Shown here: positions 49,457 through 59,270 of the stretch, piece after piece
How positions within the stretch are numbered: the first letter of the stretch is position 1
How the letters are laid out: the number at the start of each line of letters is the position of its first letter
Source: Micromonospora luteifusca
GTDB taxonomy: Bacteria > Actinomycetota > Actinomycetes > Mycobacteriales > Micromonosporaceae
DNA length: 64,000 nucleotides
Direction: 5' to 3'
Assembly: GCF_016907275.1 (NCBI RefSeq)
Contig: NZ_JAFBBP010000001.1
Coordinates: forward strand, 6,934,001-6,998,000
Translations under genes and position numbers: made by a program
The notes under the pieces: generated by a model
Told to the model about the DNA's origin: nothing
Database searches by the model: none
The model's input: the letters and a program-made list of their open reading frames with translations, nothing else

Positions 49457-51505
49457 ATGCGTGTGACCACATCCAGAGGCCTCCGTCTCGCCGTGTCCGT
49501 GCTGGTGACTGCGAGCACGGTCCTGCTCGGCCCGGCAGCCGCCGCGGCACCGCCAGCGACTCCCGAACCGACCGGGCACCGGTCCTGCGACCCGATCGAC
49601 CCGACCGCCTGCCTGCTGCCGTTCCCGAACGACTACTTCACCGTGCCGGACCGGACCAGCCCCACCGGCAAGCGGGTGCGGTTCGCGGCCACCGCGATGC
49701 CCGCGAACGTGCAGGGAGCCCCGATCGACCCGACAGAATGGAACCGGCAGGACGGCTTCAGCCCCGGCTCACCGATCCTGGTACGCGTACCCGGCCTCGA
49801 CGCCGCGGCGACCGGGATCGCGCCGGTCACCGACATCGGCCGCTCGCTGGCGCCGGACGCGCCGATCGTCCTGCTCAACGCCAAGACCGGCAAGCGCACG
49901 CCGTACTGGGCCGAGCTGGACGCGCACGCCGCAGGCCAGCCCGACCGGCAACTGCTGATCATCCGGCCGGCGGTGGCACTGGCCGAGGGCACCCGATACG
50001 TCGTCGGCCTGCGCGGCCTGCGCGACGGCACCGGAGCGTCGATACCCGCGCCAAAGGCGTTCACGGCGTACGTGACCGGTGCCGGCCTCGGGCATCGGGA
50101 CGAGCGCGTGCCGCAGATGAGGCGGATCCTCGCCGATCTGACCCGGACCGGCGTCCAGCGGCACAGCCTCTACCTGGCCTGGGACTTCACCGTGGCCAGC
50201 CGGCAAAGTCTGACCGGGCGGATGCTGGCGGTCCGGGACGACGCGTTCGCCGACCTCGGCCGGGCCGCGCCGCCGATCACCGTCACCCAGGTGACCGACT
50301 ATCCACCGGAGCAGGATCCGCTGATCGCCCGGCAGGTGACCGGCACCATCGGCGTACCGTCCTATCTGACCGGCAACGGCGGGCCCGGCTCCCGACTGCA
50401 CTACGGGCCGGCCGGCGGCGCCGGGACGCCGCCAACACCGAACGCCCTGCCCACCCCGTCCGGCGCGACCGGGGCGGCGGACTTCGTCTGCAACATCCCG
50501 CGCAGTGCCTCCGCCGGTAGACCGGCGCACCTCTCGCTCTACGGCCACGGGCTGCTCGGCAGGCCGACCGAGATCAACGCCGGCAACGTCAGGACGATGT
50601 CGAACACCCACAACTTCACCTTCTGCGCGACGAGTTGGATCGGCATGGCCGCCGCCGACGTCCCCTATGTGGCGGGCGCCTTCACCGACCTCAGTGCCTT
50701 CCCCGCGGTGGCGGACCGGTTGCAGCAGAGCTTCCTGAACTTCCTCTTCCTGGGCCGCGCGATGATCCACCCGGACGGGTTCGCCGCCCACCCGGCATTC
50801 CGGGACGCCACGGCACGGCCGCTGATCAACCGCGCCGGCGGGCTGTACTACGACGGCAACAGCCAGGGCGGCATCAACGGGGGAGCGCTCACCGCCATCG
50901 CCCAGGACTGGACCCGCTCGGTGCTCGGCGTACCGGCGATGAACTACTCCACGCTGCTGCAACGCAGCGTGGACTTCGCCCCGTTCCAGTCCGTGCTGGA
51001 CGGCTACTACCCGGACAAGGTCGACCAACAGCTGATCCTCGCGCTGCTGCAGATGTTGTGGGACCGCTCCGAGGCCAACGGTTACGCCCAGCACATGACC
51101 GACCGGCCGCTACCGCGCACCCCGGCGCACCAGGTGCTGATGCACGTGGCCTTCGCCGACCAGCAGGTCTCACCCGCCGCGGCGGAGGTCCAGGCGCGCA
51201 CCATCGGCGCCCGCCTGCACACCCCGGCGCTCGCCGACGGCTGGTCACTGGATGTGCGGCCGTACTGGGGCATCGCGCCGATCCGCAGCTACCCGTACAC
51301 CGGCTCGGCGATCGTGATCTGGAACAGCGGCGCGGCCCACGCGCCACCGCCGACCAACCTCGCTCCGGCCGGCCCGGAGTACGGGGAGGATCCGCACGAG
51401 TTCCCGCGCGCCCAGGCCGGGGCCCAGAAACAGAAGGCGGTCTTCCTACTCACCGGCAGGGTCATCGACGTCTGCGCGCGGACGCCGTGCCCCATGACGC
51501 CGTAG
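49457..51505 (+). CDS. Large secreted alpha/beta-hydrolase-like protein
   Basis: 682 residues. A signal peptide (about 1-31, ending LLGPAAAAA) precedes a mature protein starting with CDPIDPTACLLPFPNDYFTV, a beta-rich domain (about 60-330), and an alpha/beta-hydrolase-like part: LSLYGHGLLG near 362-371 (oxyanion region), YYDGNSQGGINGG with a G-x-S-x-G elbow near 470, and HVAFADQQVSPAAAE carrying the likely acid. Similar proteins are annotated as hypothetical or lipase-like. ATG 49457 has GGAGATG upstream (GTG 49463 also possible). A terminator follows. Confidence 0.78.
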   Translation: MRVTTSRGLRLAVSVLVTASTVLLGPAAAAAPPATPEPTGHRSCDPIDPTACLLPFPNDYFTVPDRTSPTGKRVRFAATAMPANVQGAPIDPTEWNRQDGFSPGSPILVRVPGLDAAATGIAPVTDIGRSLAPDAPIVLLNAKTGKRTPYWAELDAHAAGQPDRQLLIIRPAVALAEGTRYVVGLRGLRDGTGASIPAPKAFTAYVTGAGLGHRDERVPQMRRILADLTRTGVQRHSLYLAWDFTVASRQSLTGRMLAVRDDAFADLGRAAPPITVTQVTDYPPEQDPLIARQVTGTIGVPSYLTGNGGPGSRLHYGPAGGAGTPPTPNALPTPSGATGAADFVCNIPRSASAGRPAHLSLYGHGLLGRPTEINAGNVRTMSNTHNFTFCATSWIGMAAADVPYVAGAFTDLSAFPAVADRLQQSFLNFLFLGRAMIHPDGFAAHPAFRDATARPLINRAGGLYYDGNSQGGINGGALTAIAQDWTRSVLGVPAMNYSTLLQRSVDFAPFQSVLDGYYPDKVDQQLILALLQMLWDRSEANGYAQHMTDRPLPRTPAHQVLMHVAFADQQVSPAAAEVQARTIGARLHTPALADGWSLDVRPYWGIAPIRSYPYTGSAIVIWNSGAAHAPPPTNLAPAGPEYGEDPHEFPRAQAGAQKQKAVFLLTGRVIDVCARTPCPMTP

Positions 51506-51519
51506 GCGAACGCGCCGGC

Positions 51520-51553
51520 AGGGCCCGCCGGGAGCACCGTCCCGGCGGGTCCT
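51520..51553. terminator. Bidirectional terminator
   Basis: 14-base arms 51520-51533 and 51540-51553 pair with one G-T, around a 6-base loop. It lies between the convergent secreted hydrolase and TetR genes and overlaps the TetR stop. Confidence 0.75.
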
Positions 51554-52133
51554 ACGGTCGTGGTGTCATCCCGATGAGAAGGGCGTCGAGTACGCGCTCG
51601 ACGTACTCGTGGGTCAGTGGCTCCTGCGTGATGAGGAACCTGAAATACAGCGGGCCGGACAGGATCGCCATGGCCACGTCCAGGTCGAAGTCGGGGGAGA
51701 GTTGTCCCTGCTGCTGGGCTTTCCGCAGCCGGGCGACGGTCCGTTCCGCCTGGGGGCGGATGAAGCGTTCGTTGAGCGCGGCGGCCACCATGGGATCGTG
51801 CTGGGCTTCGCCCAACAGGGCCCGGAAGAGGGGGCCCTGTGGCGGCTGGCCCAACAGATCGACGGCCGCGCGGATCTGTTGGCGCAGGTCGGCCACGATG
51901 TCGCCGGTGTCGGGGTAGTCGAGTCCGGGTTCGCCGGAGGTGAGCACCGCGTCGAGGAACAGAGCGCCCTTGGAGGGCCAGCGACGGTAGATCGTGTGCT
52001 TGCCGACGCCGGAGCGGGCCGCGACCCCCTCGATGCTGAGTTTGGCGTAACCGACTTCCTGCGCCAGTTCCAGCGTGGTGCGCATGATCGCGCGGGTCCG
52101 GTCGGCGGCCCTGGTGAGTTGGTCGTCGGTCAT
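51552..52133 (-). CDS. TetR regulator of the vat-vgb operon
   Basis: 193 residues. The HTH is GYAKLSIEGVAARSGVGKHT then IYRRWPSKGALFLD (about 28-62), and the C-terminal domain belongs to the TetR_C_16/C_33-like all-helical type. The divergent promoter carries two identical 14-bp palindromes (52151-52164 and 52212-52225), so it likely represses itself and the operon that includes the streptogramin-resistance genes. The inducer could be a streptogramin or a related macrolactone; that is an inference. Confidence 0.9.
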   Translation of the reverse strand: MTDDQLTRAADRTRAIMRTTLELAQEVGYAKLSIEGVAARSGVGKHTIYRRWPSKGALFLDAVLTSGEPGLDYPDTGDIVADLRQQIRAAVDLLGQPPQGPLFRALLGEAQHDPMVAAALNERFIRPQAERTVARLRKAQQQGQLSPDFDLDVAMAILSGPLYFRFLITQEPLTHEYVERVLDALLIGMTPRP

Positions 52134-52150
52134 GCGGCCACTCTATCGGC

Positions 52151-52164
52151 ACGGCACGTGCCGT
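52151..52164. promoter_or_regulatory. TetR operator, proximal copy
   Basis: Perfect palindrome ACGGCACGTGCCGT. Its last base is the first base of a TTGACA -35 box. Confidence 0.85.
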
Positions 52165-52192
52165 TGACAATTACCGAGCGCGTGGCCAGACT
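52164..52192 (+). promoter_or_regulatory. Rightward promoter between the two operators
   Basis: TTGACA (52164-52169), a 17-base spacer and CAGACT (52187-52192). The -35 is consensus; the -10 is weak. It is flanked by the two operators. Confidence 0.6.
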
Positions 52193-52211
52193 GAGCGCAC
52201 TCAGGAGCGGC

Positions 52212-52225
52212 ACGGCACGTGCCGT
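52212..52225. promoter_or_regulatory. TetR operator, distal copy
   Basis: Second ACGGCACGTGCCGT, 61 bp after the first and with the same flanks (CGGC before, T after). It would block a transcript starting near 52200. Confidence 0.85.
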
Positions 52226-52262
52226 TCCACACCCCGAGCGCCTGCTCGAGAAGGGAACCACC

Positions 52263-53189
52263 ATGACCGAGACACTGAGCTGGAGCGCCGACAGTGACGT
52301 GCGCAGCCCGGGGGACCAGGGCGTACGGGACCCGGCTGGCCGGCGCTTCGACGAGCCGCTCGGCCTGGAACGCTCGATGACGCTGCCGGAGGAGGCCCTG
52401 CGTCTCCGCGTCGCCATGAGCCACCTGGGGGAGTCCGGCAGCTATCCCGATCCGGCCCCGGCCTGGGACCTGATGCCCCGCTCTGTCGGCCCGGCGGGCA
52501 GGGTGATCGTCTCGGCCGGCGACATGGCCCGCTTCGCCCGGATGCACCTCGATGGTGGCCTCGCGCCCGACGGCACCCGTGTTCTCTCCGCCGATGCCGT
52601 CGCCGCCATGCGGCACCGCGAGGTCGACGTGCCGGACAAGTGGACGGTGAGCGCCGACGGGTGGGGTCTGGGCTGGACGCTCTACGACTGGGACGGCATC
52701 ACCGGCTACGGTCACGACGGTGCGGCCATCGGCCAGTACGCGTACCTGCGTGTCGTCCCGCACGCGAACCTCGCCCTGGTCCTGATGACCAACGGCGGCG
52801 CCGCCCGCCTGCTCTACGCCGACCTGTTCCGCGACCTGCTCGCCGAACTCGCCGACGTCACGATGCCCGCGCCGTTCGCCCCGGCCACCACGCCACCCCC
52901 GATCGACCTGGCACCGCTGCTCGGCACGTACCGGCGTGAGGGTGTCGTCGTCACCGTCTCCCGCGACGACGACGGCGCGCCGCACATGCGCTACGAGTTC
53001 GTCGACGACATGGCGGACATGTCACCGCCGCTGGAGATGAACCTGGAACCGGTCACCGAGACGGTCTTCGCCGCCTCCGGGGCGGGCCCGTCGTTCAGCG
53101 AGGACTACATGCCGGTGGTCTTCTCCACCCTCACCAACGGCACCCAGGTCTGCTACCTGGGTATGCGCGCCACCCCCAAGGTCGCCTGA
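52263..53189 (+). CDS. Truncated serine hydrolase (beta-lactamase fold) lacking its nucleophile region
   Basis: 308 residues. From residue 30 the sequence matches the second half of a class C-type serine hydrolase: [20 protein letters not shown], then [26 protein letters not shown] (the KTG equivalent) and a C-terminal lipocalin-like domain from about 215. The usual first 150 residues, with SxxK and YxN, are absent; only an unrelated stretch ([20 protein letters not shown]) precedes. An internal deletion fusing the old start to the second half is the simplest reading. ATG 52263 has AAGGGAA upstream. First gene of the operon with vat and vgb. Confidence 0.72.
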
Positions 53190-53227
53190 CAAGCAGTCAC
53201 AACCATGAGTTTGGAGAGGATCTCCAG

Positions 53228-53884
53228 TTGACACCTGATCCTATGGCCGTTCACCCATTGCCGGCGCATGAGCGCATGGTCTTCCTCAAGCCGCTGGTCA
53301 CCTCGCCCAAGATCGTGGTGGGCGAGTACACCTACTACGACGACCCCGACGGCGCCACCGGCTTCGAGCACCGCAACGTGCTCTACGGCTACGGCCCGGA
53401 ACGGCTGATCATCGGCAAGTACTGCGCAATCGCCACAGGCGCCCGGTTCCTGATGGCCGGTGCCGACCACCCGACGATGGGCGTGTCGACGTTCCCGTTC
53501 ACCATCTTTGGTGGTGAGTGGACCGAGCGGACCCTCGATATCGTCACCGCCATGCCCAGCCGGGGCGACACTGTCGTCGGCAATGACGTCTGGTTCGGCT
53601 ACCAGGCCACCGTCATGCCGGGCGTACGGATCGGCGACGGGGCCATCATCGCGGCCGGTGCGGTGGTCACCGCCGACGTGCCGCCGTACACGATCGTCGG
53701 CGGTAATCCAGCCAAAGCGATCCGGCGCCGCTTCGAGGAGGCGGACATCGACCGGCTGCGTCGCGCCGCCTGGTGGGACTGGCCCGTTGACCTGGTCACC
53801 GAACACACGCACACGATCATGGCCGGCATGCCCGCCGACATCGAGCGCATCGCCAAAGAGAACGGACTGGAGCAAACCCCGTGA
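53228..53884 (+). CDS. vat: Vat-type xenobiotic (streptogramin A) acetyltransferase
   Basis: 218 residues, the normal length for Vat proteins, left-handed beta-helix hexapeptide fold. [21 protein letters not shown] is near 61-81 (split by the coil) with the catalytic His81, aligned with His82 of Vat[11 protein letters not shown] and [20 protein letters not shown] follow, then the C-terminal helices. It O-acetylates group A streptogramins such as virginiamycin M. TTG 53228 is preferred because GGAGAGGA is 7 bases upstream; ATG 53243 is the alternative. Its stop overlaps the GTG of vgb. Confidence 0.88.
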
Positions 53885-54801
53885 CACCCGGATCCATCCA
53901 CGAGTACGTCGTGGCCGACACCGCTAGCGGTCCGTACGCGATCACCACCGGCCCCGATGATGCGCTGTGGTTCACCATGGTCCACAGCGGGCGGATCGGC
54001 CGGCTGGTCCCCGGTGACGAGCCCACCAGCCACCAACTCGATCCGGCGTCCGGGCCTACCATCATCGTCACCGGGCCTGATGGGGCGCTCTGGTTCACCG
54101 AGTACCAGGCGCACCGCATCGGCCGGATCACCACCGAGGGCGAGGTCACCGAGTTCTCGCTGCCCACCCCGGGCTGCGGACCGTTCGGCATCGCGGCTGG
54201 CCCCGACGGCGCCCTGTGGTTCACCGAGACCACCGCCGACCGCATCGGCCGGATCACCACCGACGGCCAGGTCACCGAGTTCCCGCTCCCGGACACCGGA
54301 GCATTCCCGTCCGGGATCACCGCCGGAGCCGACGGCGGGATGTGGTTCACCCTGAACCAGGCCAATGCGATCGGGCGGATCGGCATGGACGGCGCGGTCA
54401 CCGTCCACCCGCTGCCGACCGCGGCCGCCGCGCCGGTGGGCATCGTCGCGGGCCAGGACGGCGCCCTCTGGTTCGTCGAGATCGCCGCCGGTCAGATCGG
54501 GCGGATTACCCCCAACGGCTCGATCCTGGAGTTTCCGCTGCCCGACCGCGCCGGCCGACCGCACGCCATCACCAGCGGCGGCAACGGCAACCTGTGGTTC
54601 ACCGAGTGGGGCGGCAACCGCGTCGGTTCGATCACTCTCGAAGGCGCTGCCGAGCTGCACGACCTACCGACACCACGCTCCGAGCCGCACGGCATCACCC
54701 TCGGTCCCGACGGCGCGCTTTGGGCGGCATTGGAAATCGGTGCCCTCGCCCGGATCACCGTCACTCCGGATGCCCTACCCCAGGGCGAGAGAAGACCATG
54801 A
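53881..54801 (+). CDS. vgb: Virginiamycin B lyase (streptogramin B lyase)
   Basis: 306 residues, a seven-bladed propeller. Each blade repeats a unit of the form [10 protein letters not shown]...IGRIT.dG.vteFpLP, seen from about residue 22 to 300. The last blade has [14 protein letters not shown] with His270, and Glu285 lies 15 residues later; the characterised S. aureus enzyme uses His270 and Glu284, as I recall. Vgb linearises group B streptogramins by cleaving the ester bond. GTG 53881 overlaps the vat stop, so translation is coupled and the pair would inactivate both streptogramin components. Confidence 0.9.
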
Positions 54802-57669: not shown

Positions 57670-58217
57670 ACCGGGCACGGTACGTGTTTCTCGATCAGCG
57701 CGACTCGGTCCCGCACCGATCCGGGCGGCACGTCGACCAGCCGGTGCCCGTACGCCTCGTACACCTCCTGATGCACCTGGGCGAAGGCGAGCGACTCGGC
57801 GTAGCTGATCCGGCGCGCGGCGGTGCGTCGGATGAAGCCCAGCGGAGCGGTCAGGAACACCAGCGGCTGGTAGGTCCCCGTACTGGTGATCCAGTCGATC
57901 TCGGCGGCGAGGTCGGGGCCGACGCCACGGCCCAGGTGTCGTGCCAGCGCGAGGGTGCACAACGGTGAGCGGTCGTGGATCTGCACGCCGCCGTGCGCGT
58001 CGGCCGCGAGTCGGCGGTGTCGCTGCAGGCGCGCGACGGCGTCGAGGAAGTCGGGTTCCTGCCAGGGTTCGGCGCAGCCCTTCGCCTGCCGGGCCGCGAT
58101 GATGTCGGTTGCCGCCTCCCGGATGACCAGGTGTCCGCGGCGGCTCAGTGCCTCGATCAGTGTGGTCTTGCCGGCTCCCGGGGCTCCGGTCAGGACGTAG
58201 CGCCGCGGTTCGGTCAT
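57666..58217 (-). CDS. AAA_28-type ATPase / kinase
   Basis: 183 residues. The P-loop GAPGAGKTTLIEAL is at about 11-24, and IHDRSPLCTLALA near 84-96 carries the Walker B/DRS motif; RRTAARRISYAESLAF is a lid-like basic helix. Homologues are predicted small-molecule or nucleotide kinases with unknown substrate. ATG 58217. It diverges from the tyrosine recombinase gene and is coupled to the zinc-ribbon protein. Confidence 0.87.
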   Translation of the reverse strand: MTEPRRYVLTGAPGAGKTTLIEALSRRGHLVIREAATDIIAARQAKGCAEPWQEPDFLDAVARLQRHRRLAADAHGGVQIHDRSPLCTLALARHLGRGVGPDLAAEIDWITSTGTYQPLVFLTAPLGFIRRTAARRISYAESLAFAQVHQEVYEAYGHRLVDVPPGSVRDRVALIEKHVPCPV

Positions 58218-58260
58218 CGCACTCCCCCTGTTCCCCGCTTCCGGGAAACCCGAAAATGCT

Positions 58261-58278
58261 GCATAATATCCGTTATGC
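58261..58278. promoter_or_regulatory. Inverted repeat covering the recombinase start codon
   Basis: GCATAA (58261-58266) and TTATGC (58273-58278) flank 6 bases; the ATG at 58275 is within the right arm. It may be an operator shared with the divergent ATPase gene. Confidence 0.5.
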
Positions 58279-59270
58279 ATGACAAACAGGACGAATCGCT
58301 CATGGCGTTGATCGAGGAGTTCCTGACCGCCCGGGCCACCCGCAAGCCCTCCCCGCACACCTTGGCGGCGTACCGCCGGGACCTGCACGCGGTGGCCACC
58401 CTGGTCGCCGAGGCCACTCCCCTCCCCCTGGACGCACTGTTGATCACCGGCCTCTCCCCCCGGGTGATGCGGGCCGCCTTCGCCCGGTTCGCCGGGCCCC
58501 GGGCGCCCGCGTCGGTGCACCGCGCCTGGTCCACCTGGAACAGCTTCTTCACGTTCCTGGTGGCCGACGGGATCGTGGCGGGCAACCCGATGCCGGCGGT
58601 CGGCCGACCCCGGGCGCTACTCCCCCAGCCGAAGCCGTTGCGTGGCGCGGACACCCCCGAGGTGCTGCTCGCCTCGGCCGCCCGTGACGACGGTCGGCAG
58701 CGCGACCCGTGGCCGGAGCGGGACGTTGCGGTGTTGGCGGTGGCGCTCTGCGCCGGGCTGCGGCTGTCGGAGCTCCTCGCGCTGCGGGTCGGCTCGCTGG
58801 TTGGCCGGCCCGGTGAGCGGCGGGTCGAGGTGGCCGGGAAGGGCGGTCGGCCCCGGGTGGTGCCGATCGAGGCGGATCTGGACCGGGTGCTGATGGACTA
58901 CCTGGCCAGTCGGGCGCGGCGCTTCGGTTCGCGGTCGGTACGCCCCGACTCGGCGTTACTAGTGGATCGGCACGGTGAGCCGCTGCGCCGTGGTGGACTC
59001 CAGTATCTCGTGGAGTCCTGTTATCGGCGCGCTGGTATCGGTGACCGGGTGCCGCGCGGCGCGCGGTTGCACGCGTTGCGGCACACCTTCGCGACCCGGC
59101 TGGCGGAGGACGGGGCGAGCGCTGCGGAGATCATGCGGTTGTTGGGGCACGCGTCGTTGGCGTCGTCGCAGACGTACATCGAGGTGACGGCCGGGCAGCA
59201 GCGCGACGCGGTACGGGCCAACCGGACCAACCGCGCGTTGGCGGGTCTGGTGCCCACGGACCTGGGTTGA
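58275..59270 (+). CDS. Orphan tyrosine recombinase (XerC/D-like)
   Basis: 331 residues. Core-binding domain at about 10-110 (EFLTARATRKPSPHTLAAYRR split). Catalytic residues: Arg in LCAGLRLSELLALR (about 160-173), a GKGGRPRVV hairpin, HALRHTFATRL (HxxR, about 257-267), LGHASLASSQTYIEV with His and the Tyr nucleophile near 291. ATG 58275 lies inside a dyad, and MALIEEF at 58305 is an alternative start. No other mobile-element genes adjoin. A long hairpin follows the stop directly. Confidence 0.9.
   Translation: MHDKQDESLMALIEEFLTARATRKPSPHTLAAYRRDLHAVATLVAEATPLPLDALLITGLSPRVMRAAFARFAGPRAPASVHRAWSTWNSFFTFLVADGIVAGNPMPAVGRPRALLPQPKPLRGADTPEVLLASAARDDGRQRDPWPERDVAVLAVALCAGLRLSELLALRVGSLVGRPGERRVEVAGKGGRPRVVPIEADLDRVLMDYLASRARRFGSRSVRPDSALLVDRHGEPLRRGGLQYLVESCYRRAGIGDRVPRGARLHALRHTFATRLAEDGASAAEIMRLLGHASLASSQTYIEVTAGQQRDAVRANRTNRALAGLVPTDLG

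Follow-up and report, generated by a model that had tools for sequence, protein, structure and literature searches.

Two overlapping genes in Micromonospora luteifusca raise the question of whether one actinomycete locus can disarm both components of a two-component antibiotic. The genes, a vat-like and a vgb-like reading frame, lie in the window, i.e. the whole stretch of 64,000 nt (64 kb) of DNA that was analyzed, and their coordinates and those of the surrounding features are collected in Table 1. We propose that the two genes form a dual unit that detoxifies streptogramins A and B, and from comparisons of the sequences we assign to this reading a probability of about 0.74. The preliminary description had reported a Vat-type and a Vgb-type gene that overlap by GTGA, are located on the chromosome, and retain the catalytic residues His81 in Vat and His270 and Glu285 in Vgb. 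All of this was borne out by the open reading frames, the family scores, and the residues. The 4 nt overlap GTGA was read from the window sequence, and the genome consists of one 7.16-Mb contig, which carries the pair. The translation of vat and vgb is probably coupled.

Table 1. The vat-vgb pair and its upstream region (positions are those of the window)
Feature	Position	Strand	Remarks
TetRw, TetR_C_11 regulator	51552..52133	-	divergent; Pfam
First palindrome GGCACGGCACGTGCCGTT, candidate TetR operator	52148..52165	.	putative function
Possible promoter TTGACA-17 nt-CAGACT	52164..52192	+	between the palindromes; weak -10 box; putative function
Second palindrome, identical to GGCACGGCACGTGCCGTT, candidate TetR operator	52209..52226	.	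putative function
Beta-lactamase-fold serine-hydrolase ORF	52263..53189	+	308 aa; stop codon 38 nt 5′ of vat
GGAGAGG, likely ribosome-binding site of vat	53213..53219	+	upstream of TTG; putative function
vat, Vat-like hexapeptide O-acetyltransferase	53228..53884	+	218 aa; TTG start
vgb, Vgb-like seven-bladed propeller lyase	53881..54801	+	306 aa; GTG start within the overlap

The alignment of the Vat protein with VatD begins at residue 1. At the gathering threshold, no Rfam matches were obtained within the 64-kb window. A gene for a tyrosine recombinase (Phage_integrase, 82 bits; window 57975-59270, + strand) lies about 3.2 kb 3′ of vgb, and a secreted-looking protein of 682 aa is encoded at 49457-51505 (+), for which no Pfam or NCBIfam match was found at 0.001.

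The best-scoring family for the Vat protein was NCBIfam Vat_ABCDEFH (NF000311; 238.4 bits, E 5e-71), at a value below the equivalog cut-off of 300 bits that would make it a member by score. The score with the NCBIfam CatB model (NF000490) was 160.5 bits, below the cut-off of 350 bits. The nearest solved structures by sequence were VatD and then VatA, and a Foldseek search with an AlphaFold2 model of the protein yielded VatD and VatA on all of the ranks 1–20 and the first CatB on rank 21. The mean pLDDT of this model was 83, with values below 50 for residues 79–95 (the catalytic loop), and the other four models averaged 59–68. In two trees, a FastTree of all Vat rows and a tree of 39 rows, from which the broken vat frame of L113 was left out, the protein grouped on the side of Vat and not with CatB. 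In the 39-row tree, all 26 actinomycete Vat rows formed one clade with Vat rather than CatB (support 100/99); its stem is long (0.83), and proteobacterial and Bacteroides rows are found nearby. The CatB rows formed the outgroup and differ from the Vat rows in the sequence of the catalytic loop. We know of no member of the actinomycete Vat clade that has been assayed.

Tyr37, His82, and Trp121 are named as key residues of VatD in the accessible text of PMC12366311. In the alignment they correspond to Y36, H81, and W122 of the window Vat, and their columns were kept in 111 (one gap), 112, and 112, respectively, of 112 actinomycete rows, some of which are duplicates of one strain. The His and Trp columns are occupied likewise in the CatB rows. 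The column of VatD Y54 contains Y or F in the actinomycete rows (Y55 in the window Vat) versus A or R in three CatB rows. VatD M102 and I110, which together with Y54 we take to be positions of the streptogramin A pocket, are replaced by L103 and S111.

These results bear on the strongest alternative, namely that Vat belongs to the CatB-related xenobiotic acetyltransferases and modifies a different acceptor, with only the lyase acting on a streptogramin (B). It would account for the score below the equivalog cut-off, for L103 and S111 at two presumed pocket positions, for the RefSeq name "CatB-related O-acetyltransferase" of two close Streptomyces relatives, and for the many solo vat loci (42 among the best 80 of 216). 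It is nevertheless rather improbable, as the CatB score is lower than the Vat score (160 versus 238 bits), CatB is an outgroup, the loop and the Y54 column differ, and vat is recurrently paired with vgb.

The second protein scored 477 bits with the Pfam family Vgb_lyase (PF24684; residues 5–292), which has a cut-off of 50 bits, and is thus a member of that family. The NCBIfam models Vgb(B) and Vgb(A) are "exception" models with a high cut-off, and the scores of 329 and 293 bits, respectively, were both below the allele cut-offs of 600 bits, so that the window Vgb is no close variant of either. The nearest solved structure by sequence was Vgb. H228, E268, H270, and E285 are present in the protein; H270 and E285 align with H270 and E284 of VgbA, and the four columns were kept in 46 of 47 Vgb rows (the vgb fragment of L052 was left out). 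H270 and E284, with H228 and E268, presumably are the catalytic residues of Vgb; the solved chain 2z2p has an alanine at position 270. A second, solo Vgb is encoded in the same genome (G000:C1:1529049-1529921; L009, L190), which is 61% identical and belongs to a separate Vgb clade. Solo Vgb genes of this kind are common in the genus and form a clade of their own.

In the proposed unit, Vat would use acetyl-CoA to acetylate group A streptogramins at their free hydroxyl, H81 acting as the general base, and Vgb would open the ester bond of group B streptogramins in an elimination via H270 and E285 and thereby linearize them. The destruction of both components would counter the streptogramin synergy on the ribosome.

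The recurrence of the pair was analyzed with 127 vat-like loci, i.e. 80 from genome contigs, 30 from the genus, and 17 from plasmids, with references and CatB rows counted in; L008 is the same locus as L001 and was excluded from all counts. A vgb gene was found directly 3′ of vat in 41 of the 127 loci (33 genome, 5 genus, and 3 plasmid loci). The genome contigs represent the best 80 of 216 Vat relatives, and the fraction of 33/80 therefore leans to close relatives. The 33 loci with the order vat then vgb belong to 13 genera and 7 families, with 19 from Streptomyces; the remaining loci among these best 80 of 216 were 4 with vgb then vat, 1 with a vgb fragment, and 42 with vat alone. Because of common ancestry, the 41 pair loci do not represent 41 independent events. 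A 4-nt NTGA overlap was present in 33 of the 41 loci, with vgb starts assigned by script. The Vat and Vgb distances were correlated for 36 of the 41 pairs (L113, L119, L098, L014, and L079 were left out), with an r of 0.741 that was not attained in any of 2000 permutations. Such a correlation is expected when both genes are inherited and transferred as a unit.

The reverse order, vgb then vat, was found in four Streptomyces loci, three of which have an intact Vgb from a different lineage. In all four (L086, L088, L092, L093) the genes are located behind a TetR of another type, and the vgb frame of L092 looks broken. The reverse-order loci use another Vgb branch (support 98) and another Vat branch (support 100), and therefore the pairing arose more than once. 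As pairs were also formed with a different Vgb lineage, the pairing of vat with vgb itself seems to be under selection, so that both streptogramins, A and B, are probably encountered jointly in soil. Pairing of the two families is known from other bacteria; annotated neighbors have the order vat then vgb in Paenibacillus (NZ_CP045296) and vgb then vat in Priestia. The actinomycete operon with its regulators was not found among the titles and abstract openings of the literature searched, most subscription papers being outside the reach of that search.

The genes next to the pairs were identified by seed searches, as automatic selection of the upstream gene from GC3 and ORF length was inconsistent. 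A divergent LysR gene lies 5′ of the Streptomyces pairs L064, L067, L069, L077, L087, L102, L122, and L135, and most of these also have a YciI gene 3′; at L077, the seed search found no YciI gene. A gene for a VOC protein (glyoxalase/bleomycin-binding-like) is located beside vat or vgb in L040-L042, L053, L055, L057, L059, L060, L062, L085, and L124, and also in Priestia. A sigma-70 factor gene lies between a TetR gene and vat in L012 and L044, as tested with Pfam, and in L048 and L051, as judged from ORF size and place only.

Among 160 genomes of the genus, vat was present in 36 (E ≤ 1e-30), vgb in 104 (E ≤ 1e-60), and the adjacent pair in 5. From 39 vat matches, 30 were fetched, and the other nine were assigned by comparing their contig positions with those of the vgb matches. 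In M. arborensis, vat is 98% identical and the same downstream genes follow without vgb, but the first bases of vgb, GTGACACCCG, are retained ahead of the next common stretch. Three vgb-only genomes (G013, G142, G040) keep a stretch that resembles the final ~45 bases of vat. Because of these residual traces, solo vat and vgb genes in the genus are taken to be partly remnants of pairs. The region 5′ of vat in M. arborensis (L039 / L176) differs from the window by several deletions: only pieces of the MFS gene and of the hydrolase are left, and TetR and vgb are gone, so that the stretch is unstable.

Pairwise dN/dS values (Nei-Gojobori) were 0.16–0.34 for vat and 0.26–0.34 for vgb; the value of 0.16 for vat was obtained against M. 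arborensis and is based on only 9 changes. The truncated hydrolase ORF had equally low values of 0.19–0.22 against intact relatives, and therefore a low dN/dS is no proof of present use.

The preliminary description had placed the pair under its own TetR. TetRw, the regulator in the window, is 1.1 kb away from vat, and the hydrolase ORF lies in between. The forms of G151 and G074 comprise 485 aa, and in comparison with them this ORF has an in-frame loss of ~522 bp (~175 residues), which includes the SxxK motif. The palindrome GGCACGGCACGTGCCGTT occurs twice, and its only exact copies in the genome are both within the TetRw-hydrolase intergenic stretch. For a doubled exact palindrome, 0.09 occurrences are expected in the window, and two copies were found in 0 of 100 shuffles; the pattern was chosen after it had been seen. 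When up to 2 mismatches were allowed, the 18-base palindrome had 3 matches in the genome, all in this same intergenic stretch, versus 4 for a backwards control pattern, and therefore only the exact doubled occurrence is notable. The possible promoter is oriented toward the hydrolase ORF, vat, and vgb. Because the unit follows the hydrolase ORF at 38 nt, and palindromes and a divergent TetR are found at the promoter region of that ORF, we infer that vat-vgb sits behind TetRw's hydrolase promoter. Expression would then occur by read-through from a TetR-controlled promoter 5′ of the broken hydrolase ORF, and control of vat-vgb by TetR in this way is plausible.

The other four Micromonospora pairs (G032, G155, G081, G125) have a divergent TetR of one different family directly 5′. 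A divergent TetR of the same family also precedes vat in vat-only G004 and vgb in vgb-only G013, G036, G142, and G040. The palindrome GCTATCGCTAC-N4-GTAGCGATA was matched in 5 of 11 loci scanned. Neither this TetR family nor this palindrome (11/13 type) was found in the window.

Relatives of TetRw with at least 67% identity were searched in 160 genomes of the genus and 394 of the class, two sets that partly overlap, with a cut that was set after the list had been seen. They were found at ten other loci, one of which has a partial TetR. An intact vat adjoins the TetRw relative or lies less than 2 kb away in 4 of the 10 (G094, G152, G146, G289 C344). The order is vat then a gene for an FAD monooxygenase (FMO) in G094 and G152, FMO then vat in G146, and a vat fragment then FMO in G480 C13. 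The TetRw orthologues of G151 and G074 (93 and 89% identical) flank the intact 485-aa hydrolase without vat, and a hydrolase is also the neighbor at the locus with the partial TetR (G148). None of the tested genes was found within ~3.5 kb of the TetRw relatives at G480 C3 and G289 C34. As for the doubled palindrome, G146 has an exact form, G094 and G152 have imperfect forms, and those of G289 and G480 C13 have diverged. Further TetRw matches exist at 42–52% identity, and among them G008 has an FMO neighbor. Two Streptomyces pair loci that came from the vat search and are outside the ten also contain a TetRw relative, which is located before VOC-vat-vgb in L057 and before FMO-VOC-vat-vgb in L053. 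The FMO scored 332 bits with a rifampin monooxygenase model (cut-off 800), and the VOC protein 42 bits with a bleomycin-binding protein model (cut-off 140). The rifampin-monooxygenase-like FMO was seen beside TetRw and vat in L024, L029, L165, L168, L169, L198 (vat fragment), and L053.

An own TetR of the pair is therefore only partly in congruence with these results. An intact vat accompanies the TetRw relatives at four of the ten other loci, where the duplicated palindrome is similar, but TetRw is located 1.1 kb off behind the hydrolase, and the other four Micromonospora pairs carry a different TetR. TetRw as an exclusive partner of vat was rejected, as only the hydrolase is flanked in G151 and G074. 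Because vat, FMO, VOC, and hydrolase genes recur beside its relatives, TetRw appears to regulate a set of antibiotic-detoxification genes to which vat repeatedly belongs. More tentatively, the TetR_C_11 regulator and the duplicated GGCACGGCACGTGCCG-type operator might define a modular, TetR-sensed antibiotic-degradation regulon of actinomycetes with interchangeable sets (rifampin-monooxygenase-like FMO, Ble-like VOC, beta-lactamase-fold hydrolase, vat, and vgb). In this genome, the regulon would have captured the vat-vgb pair downstream of its hydrolase promoter, and the inducer might be a streptogramin or a co-produced antibiotic.

The upstream region also bears on the possibility that the pair is decaying or silent cargo that became separated from the TetR and promoter of its own and is being lost. 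The window has no 11/13-type palindrome, the hydrolase ORF is truncated, and M. arborensis has lost vgb, TetR, and more of the hydrolase, all of which would fit. Yet both frames are open, the active-site residues are kept, the dN/dS of vat is low (0.16, from 9 changes), and a TetR promoter region is present 5′, so that we regard decay as improbable, more so than a CatB-like Vat.

Streptogramins are made by actinomycetes, and the pair could in principle confer self-resistance on a streptogramin producer, which is very unlikely here. Condensation domains, which are nonspecific for streptogramin clusters, number six in the genome and zero in the window, with the nearest about 87 kb from vat. For the producers covered, a passage of the review PMC6804068 lists transporters and reduction and mentions neither vat nor vgb.

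The clinical Vat A, D, and E are outside the actinomycete Vat clade in the 39-row tree, and forcing them together with 11 pair-type actinomycete Vats cost 117 log units (p-AU 0.00038; the constrained grouping was defined after the FastTree had been seen). VgbA groups with Priestia and Paenibacillus (support 100) in the Vgb tree, and in LR961926 the order is vgb then vat, as in Priestia. The proposal that the staphylococcal and enterococcal genes descend from this lineage, for which the same gene families side by side would speak, is therefore hardly tenable, and derivation of the clinical genes from this pair was rejected by the Vat and Vgb trees under this model and sampling.

With this pair it can be tested at the bench whether actinomycetes in soil have a ready defense of two enzymes against an antibiotic of two components. 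The TetR that recurs with a duplicated palindrome could be a sign of an antibiotic sensor. Caution is advised against deriving clinical vat-vgb genes directly from the actinomycete clade, as the trees suggest a Bacillota line for VgbA and place the clinical Vat outside the clade.

Several known systems can be compared with the pair. The type B chloramphenicol acetyltransferases (CatB/XAT) have the hexapeptide fold and the catalytic His in common with Vat, but the scores are lower, the column of VatD Y54 holds A or R, the catalytic loop has a different sequence, and CatB is the outgroup of the tree. The Vgb(A)-Vat(A) pair of enterococcal and staphylococcal plasmids (LR961926) consists of the same two enzyme families, with adjacent genes and touching or overlapping frames; in contrast to the window, vgb precedes vat, the identities are ~45% for Vat and ~42% for Vgb, and the lineage is Bacillota. 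Streptomyces coelicolor also has an actinomycete Vgb, which belongs to the WblC regulon, an inducible response to ribosome-targeting antibiotics, and in the accessible main text of that report "vat" is absent (PMC7157823). The vat-vgb genes of Paenibacillus NZ_CP045296 have the same order and overlap as well, with about 50% identity to the window pair. About 50% identity was also found for VatI and VgbC of Paenibacillus LC231, which, according to the accessible text of PMC5155152, inactivate streptogramins. The Streptomyces plasmid loci NZ_CP108708 and NZ_CP033582 differ from the window by a divergent LysR and a YciI gene 3′, and TetRw was not found there, but their Vat and Vgb proteins are 78–81% and 73–79% identical, respectively, and their genes overlap by 4 nt like those of the window.
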